A DNA stretch of 64,000 nt. Source: Parahaliea mediterranea (lineage in GTDB: Bacteria > Pseudomonadota > Gammaproteobacteria > Pseudomonadales > Halieaceae). Positions within the stretch are counted from its first letter, which is position 1; every line of letters begins with the position of its first letter. The notes below the pieces were generated by a model that was not told where the DNA came from, did no database searches, and saw only the letters and a program-made list of their open reading frames with translations. The stretch spans positions 186,001-250,000 of the forward strand of contig NZ_JAFKCZ010000001.1 in assembly GCF_017255185.1 (NCBI RefSeq). The letters are read 5' to 3'. Made by a program: the position numbers and the translations under genes. Positions 6,771-58,280 of the stretch are shown here, in pieces.

Positions 6771-7318
6771 TGGACATTATGCTGGTGCGTCACGGGGAAG
6801 CGTCCGCCGAGTGGGGGCAGCACGAAGACCCCGGTCTCAGCGCCCTGGGGCGGCAGCAGGCCGCGGAAGCCGCCGAGGCCCTGCGGGTGACGGTGAATCC
6901 CGATTGGGGCTTGTACAGCAGTCCCCAGGCCCGGGCGATGGAAACCGCGGAGCCGCTCGCCCGCTCGCTTGGCGTAGCGGCGCGAATCGAGGAGGCATTC
7001 CGCGAAATTCCCGCGCCAGTGCCGTTGGCCGGCCGCAAGGCGTGGCTGCGCCAGTTCATGCGGGAATCGTGGCGGACTCAACCCGATTCCCTGTGGCAGT
7101 GGCGTGAAGGTATCCTCGGGCGCTTGCGCGAACTGGGCGCCCCCGCAGTGGTTTATACCCACTTCCTGGTCATCAATACCGTGGTGGTTGCCGCCGAGGA
7201 GCGGGACGATACCCTGTGTTTCTGGCCGGATAACGGCTCCATTACGCACCTGCGCCTGGAAGGGGGACGCCTGTCCGTGGTGACGCTTGGCCGGGCAATG
7301 AAAACCGTGGTGAACTGA
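6770..7318 (+). CDS. Histidine phosphatase family protein (SixA-like size)
   Basis: This 182-residue protein belongs to the same superfamily as its upstream neighbour, with MLVRHGEAS at the N-terminus, YSSPQARAMETA and the VVYTHFLVINTVV block that supplies the distal His. It is the last gene of a chain running from 2457 to 7318 with one- to four-base overlaps. The small size resembles SixA, which acts on phosphohistidine, but substrate assignment is not possible. An 8-bp tandem array follows directly and could mark the operon end. Confidence 0.8.
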   Translation: MDIMLVRHGEASAEWGQHEDPGLSALGRQQAAEAAEALRVTVNPDWGLYSSPQARAMETAEPLARSLGVAARIEEAFREIPAPVPLAGRKAWLRQFMRESWRTQPDSLWQWREGILGRLRELGAPAVVYTHFLVINTVVVAAEERDDTLCFWPDNGSITHLRLEGGRLSVVTLGRAMKTVVN

Positions 7319-7321
7319 GCC

Positions 7322-7440
7322 CGTCACACCGTCACACCGTCACACCGTCACACCGTCACACCGTCACACCGTCACACCGTCACACCGTCGCATCGTCGCA
7401 TCGTCGCATCGTCGCACCACCGCACCACCGCACCACCGCT
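7322..7440. repeat. 8-bp tandem repeat array
   Basis: Eight exact copies of CGTCACAC occupy 7322-7385. Three copies of CGTCGCAT, one CGTCGCAC and drifting CACCGCAC units then run to about 7440. The array begins three bases after the stop codon of the histidine phosphatase gene. It has no coding signal and looks like slippage-generated sequence; copy number probably varies between strains. Confidence 0.9.
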
Positions 7441-19917: not shown

Positions 19918-20002
19918 GTAGTTAGCCCAAGCTCGATAGATTTTTCGAGTCTAAATGATTGTGGGCTTTCAGACTATAAGGGAGGGTAAGGGGGGGGAGG
20001 GT

Positions 20003-20027
20003 GGCCCAGAATGTAGACCCCTGGGCC
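20003..20027. other. Hairpin between repeat-protein gene and hybrid kinase gene
   Basis: GGCCCAG at 20003-20009 pairs with CTGGGCC at 20021-20027 across an 11-base loop. It lies 39 bp past the stop of the repeat-protein gene in its direction of transcription. No U-tract follows on either strand, so it may attenuate or stabilise mRNA 3' ends rather than act as a classical terminator. Confidence 0.45.
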
Positions 20028-20066
20028 GCTATGCACGAATGCTACCTGACTAGGTATGACGCGGTC

Positions 20067-20912
20067 TTACCGAATGCTCCATTTGTAACCTGCTTGTTCA
20101 GGTTGGGAGCGAATACTCCATTTGTAGCCAGCCTGTTCAGAAAAGCTTCGGATACTCCACTTATAACCGGCTTGTTCGGCGAACGAGCGGATGCTCCATT
20201 TGTATCCGGCTTGTTCGGCGGTGGACCGGATACTCCACTTGTAGCCAGCTTGTTCGGGGAAGGAGCGGATGCTCCATTTGTATCCGGCTTGTTCAGCGGT
20301 GGACCGGATACTCCACTTGTAGCCAGCTTGTTCGGGGAAGGAGCGGATGCTCCATTTGTATCCGGCTTGTTCAGCGGTGGACCGGATACTCCACTTGTAG
20401 CCAGCTTGTTCAGGGAAGGAGCGGATGCTCCATTTGTATCCGGCTTGTTCAGCAGCGGATCGGATGCTCCATTTATATCCGGCTTGCTCAGCCGTAGACC
20501 GGATGCTCCACTTGTAGCCAGCTTGTTCAGGGAAGGAGCGGATGCTCCATTTGTATCCAGCTTGCTCGGCTACATTTTTTGTACTCCACTGATAAGGAGT
20601 GGCGCCGGCGTACTCTGCGCTGCTAGGTTTCTCAATCGAGTCAGCGCCCCATTTGTAGCTCTTGTTTCGGTCTGTGGTGGCTGACCAGTGGGCGCTAGAA
20701 GCGGAGTTTTGCTCTGCCGCATTCCACTTGTAGCTATTCCGAGCGGCATAAGTGACTTCTGAAGCAAGCGAGTGGCTAACTTTGTGCACTTGGGTGGCGG
20801 CATCTTGAATCTCAGCTTCCTGAGCAGAGTTTGCACTCATTGCGACCATGGGGGCAGCTGCAAGAGAGATAAAGGCTACCGAACGTCCCAGTGTACTTTT
20901 GATAGATTTCAT
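20067..20912 (-). CDS. Secreted repeat protein with 13 copies of EQAGYKWSIR (13-residue period)
   Basis: This 281-residue protein is not recognised as a known family. A Sec signal peptide is visible (MKSIKSTLGRSVAFISLAAA, with an A-rich site near residues 28-31). Residues 35-115 hold degenerate relatives of the repeat (SYKWNAAEQ, SYKWGADSIEK, PYQWSTKNVAEQ). Residues 116-281 are 13 copies of EQAGYKWSIR joined by three-residue spacers, mostly S-F-P and S-T-A in alternation. The protein ends right after the last SIR. There is no Cys in the repeats. ATG 20912 is chosen because an AAGGTGG ribosome site lies just upstream. It is flanked by a secreted subtilisin gene upstream and two sensor kinase genes downstream, all on one strand. 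It could be a structural fibre or solenoid, or a precursor of repeated peptides; neither is shown. Confidence 0.82.
   Translation of the reverse strand: MKSIKSTLGRSVAFISLAAAPMVAMSANSAQEAEIQDAATQVHKVSHSLASEVTYAARNSYKWNAAEQNSASSAHWSATTDRNKSYKWGADSIEKPSSAEYAGATPYQWSTKNVAEQAGYKWSIRSFPEQAGYKWSIRSTAEQAGYKWSIRSAAEQAGYKWSIRSFPEQAGYKWSIRSTAEQAGYKWSIRSFPEQAGYKWSIRSTAEQAGYKWSIRSFPEQAGYKWSIRSTAEQAGYKWSIRSFAEQAGYKWSIRSFSEQAGYKWSIRSQPEQAGYKWSIR
20070..20567 (-). repeat. 39-bp coding tandem repeat with 78-bp higher-order unit, 13 copies
   Basis: The array encodes the 13 decapeptide units of the secreted protein. Adjacent 39-bp units differ at fixed synonymous sites (GGATGCTCCATTTGTATCC versus GGATACTCCACTTGTAGCC on the plus strand) and these two versions alternate. 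The true duplicated unit is therefore 78 bp, and its copies around 20219, 20297 and 20375 are nearly identical. This pattern indicates recent expansion of a two-unit block with the peptide held constant. Confidence 0.92.
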
Positions 20913-21231
20913 TTTTCCGCCCACCTTAAATAACCACTAAAAATTTCTGTCACTATCACCTGTGACCTATATCCCGAAACTGAGAATGCCCCTGCGATGC
21001 AGATCACACCTTTGTTTCCGAGTGCTTGCAAACTTTATACGTTTCGGGCTCGGGGGGAGGAAGGGTTGTATATACCCATTTTGGGTTAGCGCCCCCGGAG
21101 TGGGGGTGGGGAGTGTGGCGCCGAGGGGGGAGGTGTGGCGCAAGCTCCTGATTTAACAGCTAAAAGTATTAGCCTTTCAAGGGGGGTTGTATATGCCCCG
21201 AATGGGGTGTCTGGGGCTGGCCGGGCTTGGG
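20913..21231. other. Intergenic region between subtilisin and repeat-protein genes, with a duplicated GGGTTGTATAT motif
   Basis: No gene is supported here. Besides the CRP-like site, two related sequences stand 118 bp apart: GGGTTGTATATACCC then ATTTTGGG at 21063-21085, and GGGTTGTATATGCCCC then GAATGGGG at 21184-21207. Each contains a CCC-N4-GGG inverted element. The rest is G-rich and unassigned. The repeated motif could be a regulator site or a relic of a small repeat. Confidence 0.5.
20993..21008 (-). promoter_or_regulatory. CRP/Vfr-like site upstream of the repeat-protein gene
   Basis: Read toward the gene, the site is TGTGATCTGCATCGCA, one mismatch from the TGTGA-N6-TCACA consensus. 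It is about 80 bp upstream of the ATG at 20912. A TATAGG-type -10 candidate about 30 bp further downstream would place the site near -40, as in class II CRP promoters. It is a motif match only. Confidence 0.45.
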
Positions 21232-23223
21232 TTACTGCCGGTCCGGAGCCTTGCCGGGATGGGCGGGCCGCTGGCGCGCAAGCCGGTCAATGGCTGACTT
21301 TTCCTCGAGGTAGTGCTGGGTCCAGTCGATCGGCGAGGCCTCTTCGGGGGAGGGGCCGTTTTTGCGTTCGATGTGGGCTTTTACCCCCCATCGCCGATCG
21401 TCACTGGGTCCCTTGGCGGAGGGTTTGCCTGCGTAGAGTTCCGATAGCCCGGGCAGGGTGGCGCTGCCGTCTTCGGTGATGATGGCGGGGCCTTCGTAAT
21501 GCTGGATGTTGTCGATTTCCTGCGCCAGGTCCATATCGACGTTGCCACAGCCCCGTTTGCCGAGCGTGACTGCCCGTGTGGCGCTTGCGTAGCCGTTACC
21601 CTGCTGGAATGGGCTGTAGGCCAGGCGGCCGTCGCGATTGATGGCAAACTCTGCGCTGGAGATGAGCTTGCATTTAACATCGTCTGGGGTCAGGTCCGGT
21701 TCCAGTTGCAGCAGCAGGGATGCGATGCCACTCACCAGGGCGCTGGCCTGGGAGGTGCCTGTCATCACAAATTCGCCGTTGTTTAGCAGATAATCGGGGT
21801 GCTCCTGGGTAAGTGTCGACCCCGGGCGGGTAATGCCGGAGATATGGCCGCCCGGTGCGACAATATCGGGCTTGATGTGACCGCTCGGCGTGGGGCCGCG
21901 GGACGAAAAATCCGGAACGTAGTCGTCATTGCGGTCGTTGGGGGTCCAGGAATCGGTGACTGCGCCGACGGTGATGATATACGGCAGGTTACCGGGAGAG
22001 CCCACCGTCATGGCGTCGGGGCCCTCATTGCCGGCGGCGGCAACCACAACGATGCCCGCTTGCCAGGCGCGCATCAGGGCCTGGTTGATTGGGTCCAGCC
22101 AATACGGCCAGCGCGGGCGGGCGGCGAAGGAAAGGTTGAGTACCCGGATGCCGAGTCTTTCCCGGTTATCCACAACCCACTGGATGCCGCGCACAATATC
22201 GAGAAAGTCCCCCTTCCCTGTTTTGTTGAAGGCCTTAACCGCCACGATGTCGACGTCAGGGGCTATGCCCATGAAGCTGTTTTCCGGTGCGCCTTTCCGG
22301 GTCACCGCCCCGCTGTTGGCGAGTACGCTGGTCATGTGCGTGCCGTGCCCGCTCTCGTCAAATACCTCGGAGTCGGCAATATCCGCTATGGCGTCGTAAC
22401 GTCCCGCAATGCGCTGTCGGCCCCGGGTGTCCCTGGTGAGGTTCTCGTGTTCCCAGAGCCCGGAGTCCAGTACCGCAACGGCGACTCCCCGGCCGGTAAC
22501 GCCGTGCTGGTGCAGTTCGGCGGCGCCGGAGACCGTGGGATAGTAGGTGTCGCTGCCGTATTCGGCGTATCCAGGGATGAGTTCGGTGACACAGCCGCCA
22601 GTGAATTCAGCCTCTAAATCGATTTCATGTTGCTCAATGGATGGCGGTGAGCCTTTGAAATGGCTGAATTGAAACGTAAGTAAATGCTCACTATTGATGC
22701 GTGCCTCAATCCCTTGCGGCACCGTCAATTCGACTTTGTCGGGGCCTGGCGGAAGGCTTTGCCCCGGCATGAGGTCAGTGCCATCGAGGGTGGCTTTGCG
22801 CAACTCGCCGAGCCGCCCGGGCCAATGCATGCGCAGTGTTTCCAGGGCCACTGTGTCACTGCCTTTGTTGTACAGGCGCCAGTGGAGTGCGTCCTTGTCG
22901 AAGTCCAGTTCAAGCGCTCCGCCTACATTGCAGGCCTCCTGTACCGGCGGTGGAGGGGTCAGGGAGAGATCGTCAATGTGCCGGCTGACCAGGGGGGAGT
23001 CGACAATGGCCTCGAGCTGCTGCCGGCTGACCAGGGCGCCCACCGCGTTGATGATATGCAGGTTGTGGGTGACGGTCCCCCCCTTGAGTTCAACCAGGGT
23101 AGAGAGCTGGCTGCTGGATTCTCCCTGGAGCATCACTCGTAAGGGGGCTTCGTCCGCCTGGCCGGTGAGCGGGGATAACGCCAGCACTGCCAATAGCGCA
23201 AGGGCAAGGTTGTGTTTGAGCAT
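21232..23223 (-). CDS. Secreted S8 (subtilisin-like) serine peptidase
   Basis: This 663-residue peptidase has a signal peptide (MLKHNLALALLAVLALSPLT, ending near QADEA), a likely I9-type propeptide (about 25-85) and an insert of about 110 residues (about 95-205) not typical of minimal subtilisins. The catalytic domain carries Asp253 (AVLDSGLW), His293 (SGHGTHMTSVLA), the oxyanion Asn399 (AAAGNEGP) and Ser491 (MTGTSQASALVSG). A C-terminal extension of about 110 residues ends in a basic, proline-rich tail. Cleavage specificity is unknown. The start is 8 bp after the stop of the REC-GGDEF-EAL gene, so it is probably co-transcribed with it. It is the nearest upstream gene to the secreted repeat protein, which makes that protein a candidate substrate. 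Confidence 0.92.
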   Translation of the reverse strand: MLKHNLALALLAVLALSPLTGQADEAPLRVMLQGESSSQLSTLVELKGGTVTHNLHIINAVGALVSRQQLEAIVDSPLVSRHIDDLSLTPPPPVQEACNVGGALELDFDKDALHWRLYNKGSDTVALETLRMHWPGRLGELRKATLDGTDLMPGQSLPPGPDKVELTVPQGIEARINSEHLLTFQFSHFKGSPPSIEQHEIDLEAEFTGGCVTELIPGYAEYGSDTYYPTVSGAAELHQHGVTGRGVAVAVLDSGLWEHENLTRDTRGRQRIAGRYDAIADIADSEVFDESGHGTHMTSVLANSGAVTRKGAPENSFMGIAPDVDIVAVKAFNKTGKGDFLDIVRGIQWVVDNRERLGIRVLNLSFAARPRWPYWLDPINQALMRAWQAGIVVVAAAGNEGPDAMTVGSPGNLPYIITVGAVTDSWTPNDRNDDYVPDFSSRGPTPSGHIKPDIVAPGGHISGITRPGSTLTQEHPDYLLNNGEFVMTGTSQASALVSGIASLLLQLEPDLTPDDVKCKLISSAEFAINRDGRLAYSPFQQGNGYASATRAVTLGKRGCGNVDMDLAQEIDNIQHYEGPAIITEDGSATLPGLSELYAGKPSAKGPSDDRRWGVKAHIERKNGPSPEEASPIDWTQHYLEEKSAIDRLARQRPAHPGKAPDRQ

Positions 23224-40280: not shown

Positions 40281-40381
40281 GGGCCCGGTCCCTTAGGGGC
40301 ATTCTCGGCGCCGCGGGAGATTGAGTTCAAACCCGCACCGGGCTGGATGCGCTAACCCTGTTGGGCACAATGCATGGCGTC

Positions 40382-40591
40382 GCGGTCGAATATATTCGAC
40401 CCCACCCCGGGGAGAGGGCGTGCTCCCTGTAGGGTCGAATTCATTCGACCTTACAATGCCCCGGCGGGACTCTCTGCAAGGCGCAAAGCCGCGGTCGAAT
40501 AAATTCGACCCCCACACGGGGAGAGGGCGTGCTCCCTGTAGGGTCGAATTCATTCGACCTTACAATGCCCCGGCGGAACTCTCTGCAAGGC
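40382..40591. repeat. Duplicated 109-bp block containing two inverted REP-like pairs
   Basis: The sequence at about 40382-40482 is repeated at 40491-40591 with few changes, a period of 109 bp. Each block has one REP in minus orientation with degenerate GTGG (40384-40401, 40493-40510) facing one in plus orientation (40429-40450, 40538-40559). This is the BIME arrangement of REP families. The rest of the 40281-40675 gap has no recognised feature. Confidence 0.88.
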
Positions 40592-40675
40592 GAACAGCCG
40601 CCCCGCAGGGCATTTCACACTTGGCATGAATAGTGCTGCTGCAATACTGTGTGTAATGGAATCGGCGGCAATCGG

Positions 40676-43666: not shown

Positions 43667-43682
43667 GGCGTGGAGTGAAGTG

Positions 43683-45443
43683 ATGCAGGGGGAGACGGGA
43701 GCCGCGCTGCGCGACCGGGTCGCGCAGCACATCCAGGCTATCTATCACGACAGCCCGCTGGGTGCCTCCCCGGAGGGCCTGGCGGCGGCATTGCTGGATA
43801 TCATGCGCCTGCCGCCGGAGCAGGCGCCGCCGCTGCAGCACGTCAATCACTGGAACCAGTGCGACGCGGTCCTCATAACCTATGGCGACAGTCTCTTGGG
43901 GCGTGACGAAAAGCCCCTGGCCACCCTCAAGCGCTTCCTGGATGAAAACACCGACCGGCTGCTCAAGGGCGTGCACATCCTGCCTTTTTACCCCTGGAGT
44001 TCCGATGACGGCTTTGCGGTGCTGGACTACTCCAGTGTCAACGAGGCGCTCGGCGACTGGAGCGATATCGAGGCGATCGCGGCGGATTACGACTTGATGG
44101 CCGATCTGGTGATCAATCACTGCTCCAGCCGCAGCCTGTGGTTCGAGAATTTCGTCAAGGGCCAGGATCCGGGGCGCGGCTACTTCTTTACCGCCGACCC
44201 CGGGGAGGACCTGTCTGCGGTGGTGCGGCCGCGCACCTCGCCCCTGCTGCGGGAGGTTGAAACCAGTGAGGGCACGCGCCATGTCTGGTGCACCTTCAGT
44301 CACGACCAGGTGGACCTGGATTTTCGCAACCCCGAGGTGCTCAAGGCTTTTGTCAGCATTGTGCGTCAATACCTCGACGCGGGGGTGCGGATCTTCCGCC
44401 TGGACGCGGTGGCCTTCCTGTGGAAGGTGCCGGGAACCAGCTGCCTCAACCTCGAGGAGACCCACGAAGTGGTGCGGTTGCTGCGTACCCTGGTGGAGCA
44501 CGCCCGGCCGGACGCGATGTTGATCACCGAGACCAACATCCCCAATCGCGAGAACCTGTCCTACTTCGGCAACGCCAACGAGGCCCACTGCGTCTACAAT
44601 TTCTCGCTGCCACCGCTGTTGCTGAATACCCTGGTCACCGGCGATTGCAGCTACCTGAAGCAGTGGGTGATGGCGATGCCGCCGGCCCAGAACGGTACCG
44701 CCTATTTCAACTTCATCGCCTCTCACGACGGGATCGGCCTGCGGCCGGCGGAGGGCCTGTTGTCGGACGAGGAGCTGGACCGCTTGATCCAGGCGATGCA
44801 GCGCTTCGGTGGGCACGTGTCCTACCGCGCCCTGGAAAACGGCGAGTCCCGGCCCTACGAAATCAATATCGCCCTGTTCGACGCCCTGCAGGGTACCGTG
44901 GCCGGGCCCGACGAGTGGGGGCTGGAGCGCTTTGTCTGCGCGCACGCGGTCATGCTTGGCCTGGAGGGCATCCCCGGGATTTATCTGCACAGCCTGCTAG
45001 GTACCCGCAACGACTACCAGCGCGTGGAGCACACCGGGCACGCACGCTCCATCAATCGCCACCAGTGGGACCTGGACCTGCTGCAGGAAGCCCTGGCGGA
45101 CGGCGATAGCAGCCACAGCCAGGTATTTCGGCGGCTGAAGGCGCTGCTGGCCATCCGCCGTCGCCAGGCCGCCTTTCACCCCAACGCCACCCAGTTCACC
45201 CTGCACCTGGGCACCGCGGTGCTGGGTTTCTGGCGCCAGAGCATGGACCGCCGCCAGAGTGTGTTCTGCATTTCCAATATCAGTCGCGAGCCGCAGGCGC
45301 TGAACCTGATGGACATCAACCTGATCGACTCCCACCAGTGGATGGACCTGATCGGCGGCGAGGTCTACGGGTCGCGGGACCAGCAACTCGAGTTGCGGCC
45401 CTATCAGACCCTGTGGATCACCAACCTGCCGGATCACTGCTGA
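43683..45443 (+). CDS. Glucosylglycerate phosphorylase-type GH13 (sucrose phosphorylase family)
   Basis: This 586-residue GH13 subfamily 18 enzyme has the TIM-barrel motifs [32 protein letters not shown] (nucleophile Asp in RLDAVAF), [16 protein letters not shown] (acid/base Glu) and [14 protein letters not shown]. The family includes sucrose and glucosylglycerate phosphorylases; gene context with GpgS favours the latter, releasing glucose 1-phosphate and glycerate. ATG 43683 follows a GGAG at 8 bp; it is 16 bp after gpgS. It closes the operon. Confidence 0.88.
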
Positions 45444-45486: not shown

Positions 45487-45552
45487 GGTCGAATGAATTC
45501 GACCCTACAGCGGGCAGCTCAAACCCCCATGTAGGGTCGAATTCATTCGACC
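45487..45552. repeat. REP-like pair in inverted orientation
   Basis: One copy at 45487-45508 (minus, ends CTAC) and one at 45531-45552 (plus, starts GTAG), both with the GGTCGAAT stem. The second runs directly into the 14-bp tandem array. Confidence 0.85.
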
Positions 45553-45730
45553 AAACCAGCCCGACCAAACCAGCCCGACCAAACCAGCCCGACCAAACCA
45601 GCCCGACCAAACCAGCCCGACCAAACCAGCCCGACCAAACCAGCTCGACCAAACCGGCTCGACCAAACCGGCTCGACCAAACCGGCTCGACCAAACCAGC
45701 CCGACCAAACCGGCCCGACCAAACCGGCCC
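45549..45730. repeat. 14-bp tandem array, 13 units of GACCAAACCRGCYC
   Basis: Thirteen contiguous 14-bp units run from 45549 to 45730, varying only at two positions (CAGCCC, CAGCTC, CGGCTC, CGGCCC). The first GACC is the last four bases of a REP palindrome, so the array seems to have grown from the REP edge. It fills most of the 45444-45850 gap between the glucosylglycerate operon and fabV. Confidence 0.92.
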
Positions 45731-45850
45731 GCCTTCACTGCCCGCGCGCGATCCACTACCAACCATCGGGTTCGACATCCCCCTGTGCTAAACTCGCCAA
45801 AACCGGTTCTAGCCCGGTGATCCGACAAGTTTGGTATCAGGAAGCAATCG

Positions 45851-47044
45851 ATGATCATAAAGCCCCGCGTCCGCGGTTTCCTTTGCACCACCACCCATCC
45901 CGCCGGCTGCGACGCCAATGTGCGCGCCCAGATCGACTACGTGAAAGCCCGCGGCCCGATCGACGGCGGTCCCAAACGGGTACTGGTGATCGGCGCTTCC
46001 ACCGGCTACGGCCTGGCCTCGCGGATTAGCGCCGCCTTTGGCGCCGGCGCCTCGACCCTGGGAATCTTCTTCGAGAAAGAGGGCAGCGAAAAGAAACCGG
46101 GCACCGCCGGCTGGTACAATTCCGCGGCCTTCCACCGGTACGCCGAGGCCGAGGGCCTGTACGCCAAGAGCATCAACGGCGATGCCTTCAGCGACGAGAT
46201 CAAGCAAAAGACCATCGACACCATTCGCGCCGATCTCGGCCAGGTGGACCTGGTGGTCTATAGCCTGGCGGCCCCGCGGCGCCTGCACCCGGTAACCGGC
46301 GTGGTGCACAACTCCACCCTCAAGCCCATCGGCCAGGCCACCACCCAGCGGGGGGTCAATACCGACAAGGGCGAGATCCAGGATTACCACCTGGAGGCGG
46401 CCACCCAGGAGGAGATCGATAACACCGTCGCGGTGATGGGCGGCGAGGACTGGCAGATGTGGATCGAGGCCCTCGATGAGGCCGGTGTGCTGGCGGAGGG
46501 CGCGAAGACCACCGCCTATACCTATATCGGTGAAAAAATCACCTGGGACATCTACTGGCACGGCACCATCGGCGCGGCCAAGCAGGACCTGGACAAGCGG
46601 GTGATCGATATCCGCGAGCGCCTCGCGCAAAAGGGTGGCGACGCCCGGGTCTCGGTGCTCAAGGCGGTGGTCACCCAGGCCAGTGCCGCCATTCCCGCCA
46701 TGCCCATCTACCTGGCCATCCTGTTCAAGGTGATGAAGGAGCAGGGCGTGCACGAGGGCTGTATCGAGCAGGTCGACGGGCTGTTCCGCGACTCGCTCTA
46801 CGGCGGTGAGCCGCTGCTCGACGACGAGGGCCGCCTGCGCGCCGACGGCAAGGAGCTGGCGCCCGCGGTGCAGGAGACGGTAGCGGATATCTGGTCGCGT
46901 ATCGATACCGACAATCTTAACGAGGTCTCCGATTTCGCCGGCTATAAACGCGAATTCCTGCAGCTGTTCGGTTTCGAGGTAGACGGCGTGGACTACGAGG
47001 CCGACGTCGATCCCGTGGCGCCAATCCATAACCTGGTCTCGTAG
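45851..47044 (+). CDS. fabV: Trans-2-enoyl-ACP/CoA reductase FabV
   Basis: FabV is the NADH-dependent enoyl reductase of fatty acid synthesis that is naturally triclosan-resistant. The 397-residue product matches the family from [20 protein letters not shown]. The nucleotide loop [11 protein letters not shown] is at about residues 48-58. The Y-x8-K catalytic pair reads [10 protein letters not shown], and [14 protein letters not shown] is also family-specific. The MBL hydrolase gene starts 2 bp after its stop. Confidence 0.96.
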
Positions 47045-57907: not shown

Positions 57908-58241
57908 GGTCGAATGAATTCGACCCTACATGGCCAGGGCGCACCCCTTGTGGCGCCGAATCCATCCAACCCACGCGCGAAACACCTCGCCCCTGTAGGG
58001 CCGAATTCATTCGGCCAACACGCGAAACACCTCGCCCCTGTACGGCCGAATCCATCCGGCCAACACGCGAAACACCTCGCCCCTGTAGGGCCGAATTCAT
58101 TCGGCCAACGCGCGGAACACCTCTTCCCCGTAGGGCCGAATTCATTCGGCCAACGCGCGAAACACCTCTTCCCCGTAGGGCCGAATTCATTCGGCCAACA
58201 CGCGAAACACCTCTTCCCTGTAGGGCCGAATTCATTCGGCC
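57908..58241. repeat. REP array: seven 45-bp tandem units plus one inverted copy, within the ipd cluster
   Basis: Units start at 57950, 57995, 58040, 58085, 58130, 58175 and 58220, exactly 45 bp apart. Most contain GTAG, the stem GGCCGAAT-TC-ATTCGGCC and a linker reading AACRCGCGAAACACCTC. The 57950 and 58040 units have decayed stems (CCGAATCCATCC). A separate copy with a GGTCGAAT stem lies inverted at 57908-57929. It fills most of the 57806-58280 gap; no gene is supported there. Confidence 0.93.
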
Positions 58242-58280
58242 AACTGCGCCGGCAAACCGAAAAGGTTCGAGGACATAACC

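Follow-up and report, generated by a model that had tools for sequence, protein, structure and literature searches.

A tryptophan-core repeat array, a secreted subtilase and a Reg_prop sensor as a conserved module in Halieaceae and other Gammaproteobacteria

What might be the use of a protein that begins like a secreted protein, ends in 13 copies of one decapeptide, and is encoded beside a subtilase and two large sensors? This question is raised by a locus of Parahaliea mediterranea (family Halieaceae), contained in a stretch of 64,000 nucleotides (contig NZ_JAFKCZ010000001.1, positions 186,001 to 250,000) that we call the window. The repeat protein, here named REP, lies next to a peptidase of family S8 and to sensors with Reg_prop propeller and Y_Y_Y domains, and an earlier note on this DNA had compared the arrangement to the yeast alpha-factor precursor and its protease Kex2. 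Our analysis gives good support to a module in which array, protease and sensor travel together. The complete signalling mechanism, in which the protease would present or free peptides with a tryptophan (W) core that are sensed by the propeller and mostly set the level of cyclic di-GMP (c-di-GMP), is the reading we prefer, tentatively and with slightly less than even confidence.

The 13 units EQAGYKWSIR announced in the earlier note were found exactly, and the N-terminus of REP resembles a signal peptide, as judged by eye and not by a predictor. REP has 281 aa when read from the ATG at 20912 and 285 aa from a GTG, and its stop codon follows immediately after the R of unit 13. All decapeptides are identical in protein while 9 of 9 degenerate third positions are variable; their pairwise comparison gave 310 synonymous and 0 nonsynonymous differences (proportion of differing synonymous sites, pS, 0.72; of nonsynonymous sites, pN, 0), the 3-residue spacers differ in protein (pN 0.40), and none of 20000 draws of nine random variable columns gave an all-synonymous outcome. 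Since the 13 copies are identical in protein though all their degenerate third positions vary, each decapeptide is held by selection, and the selection on every copy that the earlier note had supposed is thereby confirmed in the window. The leader that precedes the array contains a VHKVSHSLA segment and diverged W cores (SYKWNA, AHWSA, SYKWGA, YQWST), a pattern seen again in homologues. VHxVSHSLA or close variants occur in 25 of 41 REP leaders (the window copy within 20577-20831), and this segment is a possible recognition element.

The array is named by none of the Pfam, NCBIfam or PADLOC families searched, PADLOC giving general subtilase and IetS similarity only. The weak Pfam matches of REP (Lysostaphin_N, DUF6180 and others), scattered and mutually unrelated, were discarded as repeat artefacts, and so was the opposite-strand open reading frame (ORF) 20001-20684. 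Plasmid matches to REP in Vibrio and Enterococcus were taken as chance matches of a repetitive query; no S8 or sensor annotation was found beside the Vibrio match, and the Enterococcus stretch carries no annotation.

Is this arrangement a property of one strain? We surveyed 140 genomes of Halieaceae, 78 of them of good quality. The REP search was positive in 64 of the 140 (49 of the 78), and the DNA following apparently REP-less S8 orthologues added five genomes (G004, G049, G061, G122 and G129; the REP of G049 is a leader alone, at a contig end), giving a total of 69/140. An S8 orthologue is present in 75 of the 140 genomes and in all 69 that bear REP. Six S8-bearing genomes have no REP: G009, G022, G102 and G108, where a contig ends; G055, where the form is fused; and G042, a true absence. 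The kinase was found in 42 of 42 REP-bearing genomes with at most 100 contigs, and in 15 of 27 more fragmented ones. In the 41 family loci read, S8 adjoins REP in every case (40, plus L073 by its coordinates) and the large kinase adjoins it in 34 (33, plus L072 by its coordinates). Two of the remaining seven loci lie at contig ends and five all belong to genus g23, where the kinase is on another contig together with its own downstream genes, so that the break fell between REP and kinase and both halves were retained in 5/5 genomes. The earlier note had asked whether such repeat proteins co-occur with S8 and propeller kinases across Halieaceae, and had counted homologues standing mostly without S8 or kinase neighbours against its own reading; the loci turned out the opposite way, in support of REP, S8 and the propeller kinases as one conserved unit.

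The REP unit is a 13-mer in every array with repeating units among these 41 loci (in L070 the contig ends after unit 1). REP proteins carry 4-21 W units, almost uniform inside a genome and different between genomes, with core variants such as GYKWGIR, GFKWGIR, GYIWGIR, GMKWGIR, AYRWALR, GSKWGRR and ASRWIIR, among others. REP is carried by Parahaliea mediterranea DSM 21924, with cores ending in WRIN, and by P. aestuarii S2-26, with cores ending in WSIR. Of 39 REP proteins that reach a stop codon, 36 have exactly three residues after the last W, and 33 of these finish in R or K; one has two residues after it, and in L069 a degenerate last unit still ends in R. Altogether 38 of these 39 proteins, which are related by descent, end core-like and not linker-like.

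In relatives from other families the array is the C-terminal tail of the S8 protein itself. Outside the family, the S8 query found relatives in 2 of 391 genomes searched from the order, in 3 of 370 from the class and in 5 of 397 from the phylum, all five again Gammaproteobacteria; a follow-up S8 search was positive in 55 of 157 genomes of one family and 16 of 100 of another. From 68 fetched loci, a selection of the search matches, 73 S8 genes outside the split form were recovered by motif. Outside this set, having missed the motif filters, are L109, L139, L144, L154, L170 and some genes in L160, L161 and L163. A regular array (at least 3 W, regularly spaced) is present in 69 of the 73, with a modal W spacing of 6 (33 genes), 11 (18), 12 (17), 17 (3) or 13 (1), one value being not meaningful, and the residue at -3 from W is most commonly G or A in 63 of 70 arrays. 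Unit length therefore varies (6, 11, 12, 13 or 17 residues) while the core persists. The tail of L098, DADNAGYIWNMS, closely resembles a REP unit, and fused forms are found inside Halieaceae as well, in G055 (about 55 AGNYWN units) and in genus g12 (WNDSFV or SYFFND units). A conserved N-x-W-V-x-Q-E end follows the array in 32 of these 73 S8 proteins.

S8 proteins with VWG or GNSWSG tails occur in other phyla. Further features were observed in the S8 proteins of the loci read. In family f37 (L099 2-2377 and L098 1-2613) W motifs are found before the catalytic domain too, as LSRYLWDGAKT repeats and LASYLWEET; the S8 at L090 8612-11095 has a long low-complexity stretch rich in D, T, G and S between prodomain and catalytic domain; and in genus g622 (L160-L166, L174, L178, L179) each genome has several S8 genes, in part arranged in tandem, whose tails are of the EGSIWNEG or DGYLWAD type.

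Sensor neighbours of the 73 S8 genes were sought with a hidden Markov model of the window-type sensor. A sensor is adjacent to 46 of them and within three genes of 51. Of the 22 genes without a near sensor, 14 belong to genus g622, 7 are cut by a contig end just downstream, and the last, in L089, is on a short contig; in L090, closely related to L089, the sensor lies upstream. When g622 and the contig-end cases are set aside, 51/51 S8 genes have a Reg_prop sensor no more than three genes away. GGDEF and/or EAL motifs, or such a gene within two genes, accompany 28 of the 48 sensors of fused loci.

From the parts of the module, their conservation and linkage, the history of fusion and fission and the selection on each core, we propose the following mechanism. 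A secreted subtilase would present many copies of a short W-centred core (GYKWSIR in the window strain), carried on its own C-terminal tail in most of the relatives examined outside the family and on a separate secreted REP in this one. S8 would cut the linkers, so that cores are freed or exposed, and these would bind to the periplasmic double propeller of the adjacent Reg_prop protein, in the way that oligosaccharides released by the hydrolases of a locus bind to related propeller sensors. This sensor may read the core peptides either free or on the array, with S8 exerting control through linker cutting. It would then change c-di-GMP, by phosphorelay to the receiver-GGDEF-EAL protein in the window locus and through GGDEF/EAL domains fused to the propeller in other lineages, and the cell would thereby gauge the amount of its own protease product outside. 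We infer the cleavage of the array by S8, the binding of core to propeller and the sign of the c-di-GMP response. A narrower version closer to alpha-factor, in which subtilase and identical W-core array yield a lineage-specific peptide signal that the double-propeller receptor converts to c-di-GMP, as a quorum or diffusion cue of exoprotease yield, is possible and rather less than probable.

Which part of the repeat is conserved bears on all these proposals. In fused arrays with a period of at least 11 (34 arrays), conservation is 0.82-1.0 at positions -3 to +2 around W, as against 0.51-0.69 in flanks and linkers; in 37 REP arrays it is 0.84-1.0 in the core versus 0.71-0.84 in the flanks, a weaker contrast than in the fused ones. 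Within the core pS exceeds pN in 37/37 REP arrays and in 66/66 fused arrays tested, and by this comparison each core is under purifying selection, in agreement with the result in the window. The conserved element is thus a short W core with freer linkers, which, with a unit length that varies, fits a recognised peptide motif better than a single solenoid fold. An antimicrobial peptide was rejected as a general account because core charge differs between lineages, the cores being cationic in the window family and acidic elsewhere (EGSIWNEG, EAFMWDEA, DGYLWAD).

The array might instead form an extracellular fibre of the biofilm matrix by beta- or amyloid-like stacking, a fibre that S8 would mature and c-di-GMP would regulate. 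A repetitive, aromatic, predicted-secreted protein adjoining c-di-GMP genes would suit this role; the AlphaFold2 model of REP (6 rows) is strand-rich, with about one strand per unit, and periods of 6 and 12, together 50 of the 73, would fit hexad-type helices. However, the predicted local distance difference test (pLDDT) of that model averages 48.5 and reaches only about 50-67 in the array, a Foldseek search of the PDB with it gave no match at E ≤0.001 (best E 0.23), and no PDB sequence relatives of the array were found. Periods of 11, 13 and 17, with freely changing linkers, match no single solenoid register, and fusion to a protease and a dedicated sensor would be unusual for a fibre subunit; we regard a fibre as quite unlikely.

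Aromatic repeats are common in carbohydrate-binding modules, and this is one ground for considering the array a targeting domain, which would hold the protease at a glycan or at the cell surface; the propeller would then sense products of foreign polymers digested there and not the array. The oligosaccharides bound by Reg_prop sensors of Bacteroides loci, according to the available text of PMC3243724, are another. No carbohydrate-binding family, however, is among the Pfam matches of the proteins scanned, unit length and surrounding sequence are too variable for a folded binding repeat, and REP has no enzyme to localise on its own chain. To a targeting domain we assign a very low probability.

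How the separate REP arose was examined with a tree built from the catalytic regions of 99 S8 proteins, of which 65 are fused, 31 split and 3 others. It was obtained by a quick search with Shimodaira-Hasegawa-like approximate likelihood ratio test (SH-aLRT) values and no bootstrap; S8 matches on Bacillus-type plasmids were used as outgroup only. One change on this tree accounts for the split form, which is placed within the fused forms, beside L083 and the L115/L136/L138 group; the relevant branches have SH-aLRT values of 84-96. One relic core occupies the tail position in 39/39 split-form S8 proteins, as counted with a pattern derived from these same proteins. Nesting within fused forms and a relic core at the tail site make fission of a fused ancestor the simplest account of these sequences.

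The same relic invites another explanation, in which W cores are short linear motifs of a multivalent tail that docks the protease (fused form) or a helper REP (split form) to a partner in the envelope, either the propeller sensor or a different one. On this view peptides would not be released, S8 would cleave the sensor or something else, and avidity would be set by the array. That the split S8 retains exactly one core, that so many fused S8 proteins share the N-x-W-V-x-Q-E end, and that copy number is high with linkers free all agree with docking. Yet a separate secreted REP cannot alone tether a protease, the REP C-terminus ends with a core, and g622 has tail-bearing S8 copies without a sensor neighbour. 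We judge docking unlikely.

Several observations weigh against the signalling mechanism that we prefer. The relic core and the common end of the fused tails fit docking at least as well, and the predicted strand per unit, at low confidence, would suit a fibre. Array L144 is aromatic without W. Neighbours that are not part of the module, such as NadA, are also syntenic in the family, which makes gene order there weak evidence and the linkage partly inherited; the S8/sensor linkage in fused relatives is the stronger evidence. G042 keeps S8 without REP or sensor, three genomes have the sensor without S8, G057 (L091) retains the sensor and a diverged S8 with no array, and none of the 14 tail-bearing S8 copies of g622 has a sensor within three genes. 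A subgroup of 15 of the 48 fused-locus sensors has no GGDEF signature motif; when seven of these were compared with Pfam GGDEF, four were just above the cut-off, two just below and one had no match, and the GGDEF output of this subgroup looks degenerate. Five more sensors have neither GGDEF/EAL evidence nor membership of that subgroup. The type of output is the least essential step of the mechanism. Finally, in partial Mantel tests on 27 genomes, whose kinship makes such tests weak evidence, array distance was correlated with S8 distance (partial r 0.44, p 0.0007), and its correlation with sensor distance (0.24, p 0.016) was lost with S8 controlled (p 0.13), so that array sequence follows S8 more than the sensor.

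Two of the loci concerned have further features. At L117, from the 15-sensor subgroup, a kinase with AraC-type output lies opposite. In L091 the stretch 6937-7263, between the diverged S8 and the propeller kinase, encodes a small protein whose start resembles a signal peptide and which has one FQWGS and one ITWPS motif; it may be a REP of which the leader alone is left.

The features of the window locus are collected below.

Table 1. Features of the REP locus, in window coordinates
Feature	Position	Strand	Family or remark
REP, secreted tandem-repeat protein (secretion predicted)	20067..20924	(-)	likely start ATG at 20912
Repeat array, 13 contiguous 39-bp units (3-residue spacer + EQAGYKWSIR)	20070..20576	(-)	
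Signal-peptide-like start MKSIKSTLGRSVAFISLAAAPMVAMSA and leader	20577..20912	(-)	
S8 subtilase, predicted secreted, 663 aa, directly upstream of REP	21232..23223	(-)	PF00082
Relic single W core RRWGVKAHIER in S8 C-terminal region, residues 610-620	21364..21396	(-)	
Reg_prop/Y_Y_Y hybrid histidine kinase, 1494 aa	15433..19917	(-)	HisKA, HATPase_c, receiver, Hpt
Second Reg_prop/Y_Y_Y sensor, 1088 aa	12153..15419	(-)	HATPase_c
Receiver-GGDEF-EAL protein, 602 aa	23232..25040	(-)	8 bases from S8 gene
GGDEF-EAL protein, 568 aa	25128..26834	(-)	weak receiver-like start

The S8 protein matches PF00082 over the whole domain (E 1.3e-49) and has no other Pfam match at E up to 0.1; the fused relatives L108 and L115 likewise match PF00082. 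Residues D253, H293, N399 and S491 are invariant across 5 aligned homologues, and we read D253, H293 and S491, assigned by motif, as the catalytic triad and N399 as the oxyanion Asn. The AlphaFold2 model of S8 (5 rows), with a mean pLDDT of 45.1, was not used. Pfam found no HisKA match in the second sensor and no HTH match in the hybrid kinase, whose C-terminus consists of receiver and Hpt and whose closest PDB relatives are 4a2l, 3v9f, 3ott and 3va6. The window genome has three Reg_prop proteins in all, two of them at this locus. Both GGDEF/EAL genes lie upstream of S8, the one with the clear receiver being the nearer. The earlier note was thus right in placing a same-strand S8 with a full triad upstream of REP and two propeller sensors downstream; the find is wider, including the W cores of the leader, the GGDEF/EAL genes, the fused S8-tail form and the short W core as the conserved element.

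Other repeats are present in the window. The palindrome GTCGAATNNATTCGAC or GCCGAATNNATTCGGC has 23 matches with at most 2 mismatches between 7462 and 61624, versus 0.17 expected; its sites, often paired about 45 bases apart, form an interspersed repeat family. Tandem repeats built from it lie at 57955-58244 (45-bp x 6) and 40381-40601 (109-bp x 2). A 14-bp tandem repeat x13 lies beside two palindromes at 45548-45731, between ORFs 43680-45443 and 45851-47044. At 7321-7439 there are tandem repeats of 8 bp, CCGTCACA and CGCACCAC.

We consider the module to be of a previously undescribed kind; in the literature searched, with most subscription papers outside its scope, no paper was recognised as describing it. 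If the cores are the ligand, this would be a new kind of bacterial peptide signalling in marine Gammaproteobacteria, comprising precursor array, maturase and receptor, and exoprotease output would be linked to c-di-GMP. It would also give Reg_prop propeller sensors a non-glycan ligand, those characterised in the available text of PMC3243724 being oligosaccharides. Even under docking or a fibre, a clade of W-tailed proteases travelling with one sensor type would be a conserved and testable module.

Among known systems, functional amyloids (curli CsgA, FapC) are secreted tandem repeats tied to a c-di-GMP-controlled matrix, with fixed unit length and Q/N ladders, whereas the module has W cores in units of 6-17 residues; no curli or Fap family was found among the Pfam and NCBIfam matches, and FapC (9u4u) matched the REP model at Foldseek E 3.1 only. 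No modifying enzyme of multicore ribosomally synthesised and post-translationally modified peptides is among the Pfam-identified window neighbours (GGDEF/EAL, S8, sensors), neighbour clusters c4-c18 not having been run against Pfam. Marine gelatinases and other S8 subtilases that have a C-terminal extension share the catalytic domain and secretion with the window S8; the described example has PA, FN3 and DUF11 domains in place of W-core arrays, and linkage to a sensor is undescribed in the available part of that source (PMC8780967).

Kex2-processed repeat proteins (KEPs) of fungi, including yeast alpha-factor precursors, have a signal peptide and tandem near-identical cores that differ between species, as set out in the accessible part of PMC7329392. 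The module shares with them a signal-peptide-like start, tandem cores, a protease of the subtilase class and core diversity between species. Two features that define KEPs are missing from it: KR, RR and KK are absent from the window array (RR occurs in some g23 relatives only) and no kexin P-domain was found in the window S8 within the Pfam threshold given above. The module is also bacterial and, as far as tested, unrelated to KEPs in sequence, its protease is fused or genetically linked to the array, and it is linked to a propeller sensor whose output is often c-di-GMP. For this sensor the nearest parallel is the hybrid two-component systems (HTCS) of Bacteroides polysaccharide utilisation loci, whose Reg_prop domains bind oligosaccharides produced by hydrolases of the same loci, according to the available text of PMC3243724. 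The window sensor has the same Reg_prop/Y_Y_Y hybrid architecture beside a hydrolase, with an Hpt relay next to a receiver-GGDEF-EAL protein where HTCS have a fused DNA-binding regulator; and whereas the partners of HTCS are glycan hydrolases, the partner here is a protease with a self-encoded polypeptide array.

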